Under the pieces are notes generated by a model. It ran no database searches, was not told the origin of the DNA, and was given only the letters and a program-made list of their open reading frames with translations. 64,000 nucleotides of DNA from Buchnera aphidicola (Formosaphis micheliae) (GTDB lineage: Bacteria; Pseudomonadota; Gammaproteobacteria; Enterobacterales; Enterobacteriaceae), in the NCBI RefSeq assembly GCF_039403185.1, contig NZ_CP135047.1:310001-374000 (forward strand), written 5' to 3'. Positions 20,152 through 24,615 of the stretch are shown in pieces (positions within the stretch are counted from its first letter, which is position 1; the number at the start of each line of letters is the position of its first letter). A program made the position numbers and the translations under genes.

Positions 20152-20463
20152 ATGAAAAACGAATTTAATATTTTTTTAAATCCAATCTATAATTATTCTA
20201 CATATACATCTCATCTATCATCAAACAAACAAAAATATAATGATTTATTAAAAATAACCAAAAATATAGAGGGATTGTTTATACAAATGATTGTAAAAAG
20301 TATGAGAAATAGTTTTCCACATGAAAATTTATTATCAAATGAATCTGAAAGCGTTTATCAAGATATTTATGATAATACATTATCACAAGCAATAAGTAAA
20401 AAAGGTTTTAATTTTTCAAAAATTATTGCGCAGAAAATTTTAAAAGACACTAATTTAAAATAG
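20152..20463 (+). CDS. flgJ: FlgJ rod-assembly domain only
   Basis: 103 residues that match only the N-terminal rod-capping half of E. coli FlgJ (313 residues): EGLFIQMIVKSMRNSF and the downstream ISKKGFNFSKIIAQKI stretch. The C-terminal peptidoglycan hydrolase domain is absent, as is usual in Buchnera. 17 bases after flgI. It is the last gene of the flg cluster, since flgK is not found downstream. Confidence 0.88.
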   Translation: MKNEFNIFLNPIYNYSTYTSHLSSNKQKYNDLLKITKNIEGLFIQMIVKSMRNSFPHENLLSNESESVYQDIYDNTLSQAISKKGFNFSKIIAQKILKDTNLK

Positions 20464-21720
20464 TTAATCAATTTATTACATAATATATTTAAAAAATATA
20501 TTTTTAAAATTTTTTATAAAAAAGAGTTAAATATTACTATTTTTTATATCTTATGAATTTAATAATTTTTATTACATATACATAGAAATATTAAGCATCC
20601 CATAACAATTTAAAAACAATATTAAATATAAAAATGGGATGCAAAAAAAAATAAAAAAATATCAACTATGATATTTAATCACATTACTAAAAATATTTTA
20701 GATACATATTCATCTATATCAAAACCATATTTCTATAATTTGAAATTATCGAATATATGATTAAATTCAATTTTTATATATTACAAACTATTAAGAAATA
20801 ATCTAATAATTAAATAACTAACCTGTCATTACTATAATATTAGTAATACACAAATATATATATTATATTTATTAGAAATATATAAATAAATTATTAACTA
20901 GATTTATGAAGTGTTTTTATTTGTGATGTATTATTTTTTTAATACTTAACATTACTATAATTTATAGAACAAAGATAAAAACTATATTAATTTATTTTAT
21001 AAACTATTTTTAGTATAATGTCATATTAATTCAATACAATATATGAGATATTATTTAGAAATATTTTTTATATAACATGATACGTCAATTCAAATCAAAT
21101 AAGTATTATATTATAAAATTATATTTATACATAATCATTTTATATTTAGTACAACTATAAGATACATAATTCATCTACACAAAATTATCACATAAAAAAA
21201 CTTTATTTAAAATAAGAAATTAATTTTTTTTTTACTATAAATAATAAAATATTTTTGATTTTTTAAAAAATATATTGTATATAATACATTTTATTTATGT
21301 CATACTCATTTAAATTATTATTGATTATTAATTTCATTTTATCAGAATTTTTTATATTTTTTTAATTAAAATGAACTATTTTTTTTATTAAATTTTTTAA
21401 AACTATATCTTGAGAATATATTAATTTAATTAAACTAAATATTTTTGTATTTTATCTGTAATTAATTATAAAAAATATTTTTTCTAAACAATTATATTTT
21501 ATAAAAAATTAAATTAATTAATTTTTTTGTTTAATATAATTACTATTATTTATATTTTTTTAATATTTTATACTTGTATTAATATAAAAGTATAATCAAT
21601 AGATTATAGAAAAAATATGAATTTTTTTATTTTTTCTTTCATAATTATTTTTTTATATAATTTACTGCACGTTATGTCATTTAATTAAATAAGAACTAAA
21701 ATATTTTATTTATTATTACT
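20464..21720. other. gene-free stretch between flgJ and rne; no flgK
   Basis: About 1.26 kb with no open frame of recognisable origin. Larger Buchnera genomes carry flgK here. No FlgK-like motif could be read on either strand, so the gene is deleted or fully eroded. An inverted repeat at 20595-20642 is the only structure noted. Confidence 0.55.
20595..20642. repeat. 9-bp inverted repeat after flgJ
   Basis: GCATCCCAT (20595-20603) and ATGGGATGC (20634-20642) pair perfectly around a 30-base loop. The GC content of the arms stands out. No U run follows on the plus strand (an A run does), so it is not a standard terminator for the flg message, but it may be an end-protecting structure. Confidence 0.5.
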
Positions 21721-21721
21721 T

Positions 21722-21915
21722 TTTATTAATAAATAATACAGAATAGTGCAATAATTTTAATTTAATCATTTTTTGATACAATGATAATACGTGTTGTCTA
21801 CTATTTTTATGTTTATCTCTTTAATTTACTTCTGTTCTCTTATTATTTAATAGATTACAAGATAACTCTATACTGGAACAATTGCATGTACTTCATGAGT
21901 ATTTTCTTTTAATAC
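21722..21915 (-). pseudogene. rne: decaying remnant of the RNase E small domain
   Basis: Directly after the rne stop at 21916-21918 the same frame continues as VLKENTHEVHAIVPV, matching the E. coli stretch after residue 430. A second stop and a frameshift follow, then LLNNKRTEVN is readable in another frame (E. coli LLNEKRSAVN), and further on HVLSLYQKM and a YSVL segment. This is the 3' part of rne, no longer translated as one protein. The left boundary is approximate. Confidence 0.8.
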
Positions 21916-23205
21916 TTATTTTTCAATGAATTTTAAAATAGAAAGAGATAATGAATCATTATCTCGAATAGTACCTAACCCACCACATCGAGGACAAATA
22001 TGATAACTTGATTCTCCCAAAGATGGACTAAGACGTTGACGAGACATTTCTAATAAACCAAATTTAGAAATATTACTTATTTGAGTACGAGCGCGATCAT
22101 GTTTAACTAATTCACGTAATCTATTTTCAATTTCACGCTGATGATAACTAGACGCCATATCAATAAAATCTATAACTATTAATCCTCCTAAATCTCGTAA
22201 TATTAATTGACGAGCAATTTCATCAACTGCTTCAATATTAGTATGTAATGCAGTTGTTTCTATATCTATAAATTTAGTAGAACGTGACGAATTAATATCT
22301 ATAGCAATTAACGCTTCCGTAATATCTATTACAATAGATCCTCCTGATGGTAATCTAACTTCTCTTTGAAAAACAGAATTAATTTGTGACTCTATTTGAT
22401 AATGACTAAATAAAGGAGTTATTCCCTTATAAAGTTTAATTTTGTTACTGAAATCAGGTCGACCTAATAATTTTATATGTTGATGAGCTATCTTTAAAAT
22501 TTTTGGATTATCAATAAGAATTTCACCAATATCTGATTTAAGATAATCACGAAAAGCTCGTATAATCACATTACTATCTTGATATATTAAAAAAGGAGCA
22601 TTATTATTTTTTGCAGCCTGTTTAATTGCATCCCAATGTTTTAATTTAAAATTAAGATCTAATGTTAATTCATCAATAGATTTTCCCACTCCAGCAGTTC
22701 TAATTATTAACCCCATATTATTAGGTAATTTCAATGAAGATAAAATCTCTTTTAATTCCAATCTTTCTCTTCCTTCCACTTTTCTAGAAATACCGATTGC
22801 ATGTGGATTATTTGGCATTAAAACCAAATAACTACCTGCTAAACTAATAAATGTAGTTAATGCTGCTCCTTTACTACCTCTTTCTTCTTTATCTATTTGT
22901 ACAATAATTTCCTGTCCTTTTTTTAAAATATTTTTAATGTTAGGTTTTATATATGAAAAACAGTTATTAGAAAAATAATCTTTAGAAATTTCCTTTAAAG
23001 GCAAAAAACCATGTTTATTAAATCCATAATCAACAAAAACAGCTTCTAAACTGGGTTCAATTCTAGAAATTTTTCCTTTGTAAATGTTAGATTTTTTATT
23101 AACATGTCCATGTTTTTCAATACCTAAGTTATATAAACGTTGTCCATCAACAAATGCAACTCTCAATTCTTCTCTCTTAGTTGCGTTAATTAACATTCTT
23201 TTCAT
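21916..23205 (-). CDS. rne: ribonuclease E, truncated after the zinc-link
   Basis: Endonuclease for mRNA decay and for rRNA and tRNA maturation. The 429 residues cover the S1 domain, the 5' sensor and the DNase I-like fold, with both magnesium-binding aspartates ([15 protein letters not shown] and IVIDFIDM). The zinc-link CPRC is kept with its cysteines at 404 and 407, the E. coli positions. The small domain (about 430-529) and the whole degradosome scaffold are missing because of a TAA at codon 430; E. coli has 1061 residues. The fold can probably still dimerise through zinc, but the tetramer interface is gone. Confidence 0.92.
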
Positions 23206-23664: not shown

Positions 23665-24615
23665 ATGTCGTTAATTCGTAATATATACATCACGGAAGAC
23701 ATGGAACAACAAAGAATAGATAATTTTTTAATAAAAAAATTTAAAACTATGCCAAAAAGTTTAATTTATAAAAATATTAGAATTGGTAAAATAAAAATAA
23801 ATAAGAAAAAAATTAAACCAAAATATAAATTAAAGATAGGTGATAAAATAAATGTTATCTCTATGATGACAAATCATCTAACAAAGAACAAAATTACAAT
23901 TATAAATCAAAAAAAAATTTTTAAAATAAAAAATATATTTTTTAACAACATATTATATGAAGATGAACATTTATTAATAATAAATAAACCATCTGGAATA
24001 GCTGTACATGGAGGTAGTGGAATACACTTCGGGATAATAGAATGTATAAGGCAATTAAGACAAAAAAATACCTTTCTTGAATTAGTACATCGATTAGATC
24101 GTTCTACATCTGGAATCTTGCTATTAGCTAAAAAACGTTCAGCATTAATTAATTTACATCAACAATTAAGAGATAATCAAATTAAAAAAAAATATTTAGC
24201 TTTAGTTCACGGAAATTGGCCTGAATCAAAAAAAATTGTCATCACTCCTTTGCTAAAAATAAAACAATTTAATAAAAAAAATATTGTTATAGTAAATAAT
24301 AAAGGAAAAATATCAGAAACTCATTTTAAAATTCAAAAAAAATATATTAATAATACTTTACTTTCAGTAACTCCTATTACTGGTAGAACTCACCAAATTC
24401 GTGTTCATACATCACATGTCGGACATCCAATAGTATTTGATGATAGATATGGAAGACATGATTTAGACATTTATAATAAGACAAAAGAAATCAACAACAG
24501 ATTATTATTACATGCTAATGAAATTAATTTTTTACATCCAAAATTTAATTATCGCATCAATATATTAGCCCCATTAGAAAAAAATGTTAAAAAATATTTA
24601 GATTTACTCTTATAA
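23665..24615 (+). CDS. rluC: 23S rRNA pseudouridine synthase RluC
   Basis: Makes pseudouridine at 955, 2504 and 2580 of 23S rRNA in E. coli. 316 residues (E. coli 319). N-terminal S4 RNA-binding domain (about 14-75), then the catalytic domain with the HRLDRSTSG motif holding the catalytic Asp, and GRTHQIRVHT. The N-terminal region is very Lys-rich. Lies divergent from rne, as in E. coli. Confidence 0.94.
   Translation: MSLIRNIYITEDMEQQRIDNFLIKKFKTMPKSLIYKNIRIGKIKINKKKIKPKYKLKIGDKINVISMMTNHLTKNKITIINQKKIFKIKNIFFNNILYEDEHLLIINKPSGIAVHGGSGIHFGIIECIRQLRQKNTFLELVHRLDRSTSGILLLAKKRSALINLHQQLRDNQIKKKYLALVHGNWPESKKIVITPLLKIKQFNKKNIVIVNNKGKISETHFKIQKKYINNTLLSVTPITGRTHQIRVHTSHVGHPIVFDDRYGRHDLDIYNKTKEINNRLLLHANEINFLHPKFNYRINILAPLEKNVKKYLDLLL

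Follow-up and report, generated by a model that had tools for sequence, protein, structure and literature searches.

In the Buchnera of Formosaphis micheliae, the gene (rne) for RNase E, an enzyme essential to E. coli, stops after 429 codons. Does this shortened gene still specify a working ribonuclease, or is it the residue of an enzyme that the bacterium has ceased to need? We examined this question in a 64-kb stretch of DNA (the window), which is part of the 554,353-base chromosome. When the first 8000 of the 8788 bases of the plasmid contig were used as a query, they proved 98.3% identical, over 74% of their length, to a plasmid from a Formosaphis micheliae Buchnera. The relevant features, with their evidence in brackets, are as follows.

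21916..23205, minus strand: rne, RNase E core, 429 codons, stop included in the span (ORF list, Pfam, phmmer)
21918-21916, minus strand: premature TAA stop of rne (sequence)
22852..23100, minus strand: S1 domain, E. coli residues 36-118 (Pfam S1 at residues 38-117; F57, F67 and K112 kept)
22564..22851, minus strand: 5′ sensor, residues 119-214 (V128, R169 and T170 kept)
22372..22563, minus strand: RNase H-like subdomain, second part, residues 215-278 (groove residues H268, Y269 and Q270)
22006..22371, minus strand: DNase I-like catalytic subdomain, residues 279-400 (D303, N305, D346 and R373)
21973..21996, minus strand: zinc-link CPRCGGLG, residues 404-411 (C404 and C407 kept)
21868..21915, minus strand: small-domain remnant, first frame, 15 codons with a TAG at the end (shuffle-tested match)
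21722..21871, minus strand: small-domain remnant, second frame, 50 codons, TAA at 21823-21821 (shuffle-tested match)
20464..21721, minus strand: decayed former C-terminal half, ~12% GC, no remnant above shuffles (shuffles, GC)
20152..20463, plus strand: flgJ, convergent neighbour of rne, synteny anchor
23665..24615, plus strand: rluC, divergent neighbour of rne, synteny anchor

The boundaries given for the S1 domain (36-118) and the 5′ sensor (119-214) are those that we take to hold in E. coli.

The truncation of rne after codon 429 is confirmed. A sequence-only reading of this DNA had placed a TAA after that codon, and the ORF at 21916-23205 on the minus strand indeed ends in a TAA at 21918-21916. 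The 429-residue product comprises, as was also claimed, the S1, 5′ sensor, RNase H, DNase I and zinc-link portions, and the small domain and C-terminal half are gone. However, the stop does not lie directly behind the zinc-link. Eighteen residues separate it from the last glycine of that motif (G411), which leaves ~15 residues of the start of the small domain in place.

GC content by codon position is 40/33/10% in the ORF (27.6% overall) and 13/12/14% behind its stop, which indicates that the ORF is coding and the 3′ half is not. The protein is 74% identical to E. coli RNase E over residues 1-391, its residues 1-428 match E. coli RNase E structures in phmmer with E ~1e-211, and the Pfam models PF10150 (RNase_E_G) and S1 are covered over almost their full length. 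Twelve of the 12 positions checked (F57, F67, K112, V128, R169, T170, D303, N305, D346, R373, C404 and C407, a choice that is in part presumptive) have the E. coli residue. These include the catalytic residues of the Rne/Rng ribonuclease family, D303, N305 and D346, all three of which are named in the available text of PMC6538622. An AlphaFold model of the protein has a mediocre mean pLDDT of 71.9, with residues 392-429 mostly below 50, and is too weak for contacts to be read from it; used as a Foldseek query, it has RNase E structures as its best matches.

The protein passes the TIGR00757 model of the Rne/Rng family (519.4 bits, cut-off 325.95), with positions 1-414 of 415 matched. It falls short of NF008074, the RNase E equivalog (869.1 bits, cut-off 908; positions 1-428 of 1068), probably because of its length, and of NF008689, the RNase G model (306.8, cut-off 594). 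Although the small-domain model PF20833 scores 27.5 (cut-off 26.8), only its positions 1-27 of 86 are covered, so that the complete domain is lacking; in the full-length sister G002 positions 1-85 are matched. The zinc-link agrees with the motif CPxCxGxG. Neither an ORF nor a remnant above shuffles was found for the membrane segment and C-terminal half (the degradosome scaffold). As in E. coli, where the gene likewise lies between rluC and a flagellar gene, and as in close relatives, the window rne is flanked by rluC and flagellar genes. Among the compared relatives, rluC adjoins rne in most loci, while flgI or flgJ is on the other side in the window's genus, the Baizongia group, G122, Thelaxes, Nipponaphis and Ceratoglyphina, and in only one of ten Periphyllus-group loci, whose flanks are short. 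RNase G has a paralogous core without segments that appear to stabilize the dimer-dimer interface, according to the accessible part of PMC2948425, but the window protein scores higher as RNase E than as RNase G and its neighbours are those of rne.

Behind the stop the small domain is still readable for ~65 codons, across two more stops and one frame change. The 15 codons directly past the TAA, VLKENTHEVHAIVPV, align with RNase E from residue 431 and are followed by a TAG at 21870-21868; the TAA, this TAG, the frame change and a further TAA all fall within 98 bases. We compared the 1452 bases behind the stop with 1000 dinucleotide shuffles of themselves. E. coli residues 431-530 score 29.6 bits on the real sequence (best shuffle 18.9) and the G003 small domain scores 32.7 bits (best shuffle 23.1), with 0 of 1000 shuffles reaching the real score for either query, which bears out the earlier claim that the lost domain can be read from residue 431 across a stop and a frame change. 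For the C-terminal half past the small domain no remnant was detectable, as 280 of 1000 shuffles score as high as the real sequence. GC content drops to 21% over the 200 bases next to the stop and to 11.7% farther on. No separate small-domain ORF was found; the longest ORF overlapping 20464-21915 encodes 43 aa on the opposite strand.

Some other candidates near the stop were set aside. A weak resemblance to the membrane segment behind the stop was rejected because it does not rise above shuffles. A terminator-like hairpin at 21965-21945 on the minus strand lies inside the end of the ORF and is followed by a T-rich stretch. By eye, its repeat is missing in G001-G003 and is found in the full-length rne of G151, and thus the hairpin is not linked to the truncation. 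With Rfam at gathering thresholds, we looked for an rne leader in the window and in three sister loci and obtained four tRNAs only.

The sequence-only reading had proposed comparing rne length among sister genomes, and the other three of the four genomes in the window's genus (G001-G003) all have full-length genes of 1009-1020 codons. Its description of the truncation as a recent step holds insofar as the loss came after the split from these genomes. Yet G001-G003 differ from the window at 22-23% of core residues and its 3′ half is already unrecognizable, and the picture of one fresh stop gives way to the loss of that whole half.

Similar truncations are found well outside this genus. We surveyed 41 genomes, namely the window's genus and 37 genomes of at most ~900 kb picked out of a sample of 149, and host names for the relatives were inferred (G047 Baizongia pistaciae, G094 Thelaxes californica, G013 Cinara confinis, G062 Sarucallis, G102 Greenidea, G112 Mindarus keteleerifoliae, G153 Melaphis rhois, G163 Periphyllus lyropictus, G183 Cinara tujafilina, G192 Phyllaphis fagi, G033 Nipponaphis monzeni and G055 Ceratoglyphina bambusae), as were group names such as Periphyllus, Baizongia, Sarucallis and Cinara. 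Open frames of 966-970 codons occur in three of three genomes of the Mindarus genus, and frames of 981 and 1007 in two genomes of the G122 genus, where G122 itself has an rne of 417 codons. Nipponaphis (559) and Ceratoglyphina (518) retain the catalytic half with its small domain and lack the long C-terminal half. Matches were obtained in 10 of 11 Periphyllus genomes (open frames of 393-409) and not in the eleventh. The Baizongia/Melaphis genus likewise has matches in 10 of 11, with open frames of 203-475 and none in Melaphis (G153); four of these genes are frameshifted (G154, G156, G159 and G160), and three have a stop inside the matched stretch. Only three of 11 Sarucallis/Phyllaphis genomes have a match (open frames 415-418) and eight have none, and in the Cinara genus 0 of 16 genomes reach the family cut-off, the single hit of 12 bits lying far below it. 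Among the 41 surveyed genomes, three lack an RNase E match (G013 Cinara confinis, G062 Sarucallis and G102 Greenidea), and none was found in G153 and G171 either. Truncated and absent copies stand side by side in three genera. This recurrence of the core-only state in Buchnera, and its occurrence in several groups next to genomes wholly without the gene, had escaped the earlier reading.

The frameshifts of four gall-aphid Buchnera lie at runs of about ten A residues, near codon 36 in loci L172, L173 and L174 and near codon 210 in L179. Polymerase slippage at these sites could give some full product.

We aligned 60 rows from small genomes, some of which are not Buchnera. The small domain is present in 33 rows, partial in two and missing from 24; these counts lean towards three genera, with 10 rows from the Periphyllus group, 9 from the Baizongia group and 3 from the Sarucallis group. 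G104, whose rne is interrupted, was left out of the small-domain and residue-278 counts, and the interrupted rne of G160 was not aligned. The 24 rows without the domain are 380-429 residues long and end near the DNase I end or the zinc-link, with both zinc cysteines kept in 15. A tree built from the PNPase of 20 genomes joins the window to G002 and G003 (100/99) and G122 to G151 and G152 (100/96), all four partners having a full-length rne. Topology tests, which were run after the tree was seen, reject a single grouping of the 13 rows without the whole small domain or gene (p 4.6e-6), a grouping of the window with G122 (p 1.2e-4) and one of the window with the Baizongia group (p 3.3e-5). If the ancestors were full length, it follows from these rejections that the small domain would have been lost at least three times independently. 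The Thelaxes, Periphyllus and Sarucallis groups may add further losses, although the deep branches of the tree are weakly supported.

Is the remaining core under constraint? We took 38 reciprocal-best ORFs shared by the window, G003 and G002, mechanically found and uncurated, and divided the window branch by the distance between sisters. The ratio for rne, 2.40, is tied for the highest (range 0.65 to 2.40), and in the corresponding set of 38 ORFs from G122, G152 and G151 that for rne is second highest (2.74; range 0.55 to 3.16). The dN/dS ratio is ~0.17 (0.141/0.83) from the window to G003, a value that takes in time before the truncation, and ~0.08 (0.045/0.57) between the sisters. The core has thus evolved faster in both truncated lineages; together with the dN/dS of ~0.17 for the window, this reads as purifying selection relaxed but not absent. 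Periphyllus-group proteins are only 33-40% identical to E. coli RNase E, and D303, N305 and D346 are present in 10 of 10 rows; unconstrained sequence would hardly retain them through such divergence. Elsewhere among the truncated rows, R373 is changed in nine (it is K in full-length G001 and G002 also), T170 and F67 in G168, and F67 in G166.

We consider it most likely, and hold with fair confidence, that the window rne still encodes a functional RNase E of minimal form, which lacks the small domain, the membrane anchor and the degradosome scaffold. In the lineage of the Formosaphis Buchnera, a nonsense change behind codon 429, together with further stops, a frame change and decay, would have removed the small domain and C-terminal half. 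The remaining core would still be made and used, as a soluble minimal endonuclease of RNase H, S1, 5′ sensor, DNase I and zinc-link parts. It is expected to form the principal dimer through its DNase I faces and one shared zinc, to be unable to form the dimer of dimers, and to work untethered to the membrane and with no PNPase attached. Since R3, Q22, H268, Y269 and Q270 are kept and the stretch for K433, R488 and R490 is lost, only the RNase H half of the groove for structured RNA would be used. The 5′ sensor and channel would remain in use and the full groove would not, and the core is predicted to cut 5′-monophosphorylated and single-stranded RNA, and groove-dependent precursors poorly. The window rne would then represent one stage in a wear-down of the Buchnera enzyme from full length to catalytic half, to core with zinc-link, to core without zinc-link, and finally to absence. 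Groove residues were considered as a signal of truncation and proved unclean. Q22 or Q270 is changed in 10 of 10 Periphyllus-group rows, in Thelaxes and in some others, but both are kept in several truncated rows, and one or both positions are changed in G055 and G033, in which the small domain is present.

The alternative that the whole gene is already a dying pseudogene, with RNase E dispensable here and the 429-codon frame merely unbroken so far, we judge unlikely. The elevated rate of the core does fit relaxed constraint en route to loss. The A-run frameshifts within the core of some gall-aphid Buchnera also speak for this alternative, and so does the scarcity or absence of the gene in the Cinara group (0 of 16), the Sarucallis group (3 of 11), Greenidea, Melaphis and one Periphyllus-group genome. 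However, codon periodicity is strong, the frame is intact and all 12 checked residues are conserved in a gene whose 3′ part has fully decayed, and a divergent core is retained in nearly all of the Periphyllus group. It also counts against a working core that the 529-residue catalytic half of E. coli RNase E was insufficient for normal growth in a published test (available text of PMC9841416) and that removal of the zinc motif blocks tetramers and strongly lowers activity (PMC2631609, in the part available). On the enzyme in general, PMC9841416 describes a groove, made up of RNase H and small-domain residues, on which tRNA-precursor cleavage and E. coli viability depend, and PMC2631609 states that studies suggest tetramers to be necessary for full function. 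According to the portion of PMC4435900 at hand, the large domain and the zinc-link take part in the dimer, while the small domain has a role in both dimer and dimer-dimer contacts.

An error of assembly or base calling that hides an intact gene is very improbable: several lesions and ~1250 bases without coding signal are too much for one error, like truncations occur in other genomes, and the source assemblies were Pilon-corrected according to the accessible text of PMC11193766, although the sequence comes from one genome with short-read source data (NovaSeq). Just as improbable is a longer protein with the small domain, produced by readthrough, frameshifting or polymerase slippage, given the close succession of TAA, TAG, frame change and TAA. 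Slippage at A-runs is described for endosymbionts, but no A- or T-run of seven or more lies in 21700-21960, and the sole such run of the ORF is near codon 94.

Beyond a working core in the window, we give slightly less than an even chance to a wider proposal, in which a short RNase E of ~390-430 residues that still works has arisen repeatedly in Buchnera, lacking the small domain, the tetramer, the membrane anchor and the scaffold, in some species the zinc-link too, and has been kept through long divergence in the Periphyllus group. Function would then be independent of the tetramer, and the core would have adapted to the loss.

The window protein has the domains and residue numbering of the E. 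coli catalytic half, and a laboratory minimal RNase E peptide was reportedly described by Caruthers et al. in 2006. Unlike these, the window truncation is natural and chromosomal, with the zinc-link kept and the rest of the gene decayed. Two endosymbiont cases are already in print. In Moranella endobia, rne has also lost a C-terminal domain, 'PNPase C', and the available part of that account (PMC3620526) describes the domain loss only, with nothing on small-domain loss or recurrence. In the Buchnera of Cinara cedri, rne is absent and is found in the co-symbiont (PMC9035817, available text), which would be the end point of the same erosion; in the window, by contrast, the core survives. Among the papers listed by literature searches, none deals with a recurrent core-only state of the Buchnera enzyme or with the loss of its small domain.

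The window case alone is modest, and the recurrent series across Buchnera is the interesting part. The dispensability of the tetramer, zinc-link, structured-RNA groove and scaffold has been argued mainly from engineered mutants, and Buchnera supplies a series made by nature, which runs from the whole enzyme through the core to no gene at all and in which close full-length sisters can serve as controls. The series also qualifies the published view that gamma-proteobacteria ubiquitously have RNase E, even where the genome has shrunk (PMC4435900); the main text of that paper does not contain the word 'Buchnera'.

At residue 278 (window 22372-22374), the alanine is changed in 22 of 24 rows without the small domain, the window included. 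All 80 rows taken from named genomes, the best 80 among 590 confirmed loci, keep it, and it is changed in one of 22 full-length small-genome rows; the residue also varies in five of 33 small-genome rows with the small domain. E276 is the second site to reach six lineages, and it varies in eight of 22 full-length rows. A permutation gave P 0.0012 for any site reaching six lineages, ignoring residue type and done after the site was seen. The change at 278 is possibly compensation, or possibly drift in fast AT-rich lineages, which lose alanines in general.

Loss of RhlB as a partner was considered and rejected as an explanation. The listed DEAD-box matches of 20 genomes, some of which have a full-length rne, include no frame near the size that we take to be usual for RhlB, ~420 aa. 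Because such a frame is missing even where rne is full length, RhlB loss does not explain the truncation. PNPase was found in 20 of 20 checked genomes whether RNase E is present or not, and a DEAD-box gene adjoins it in all 20.
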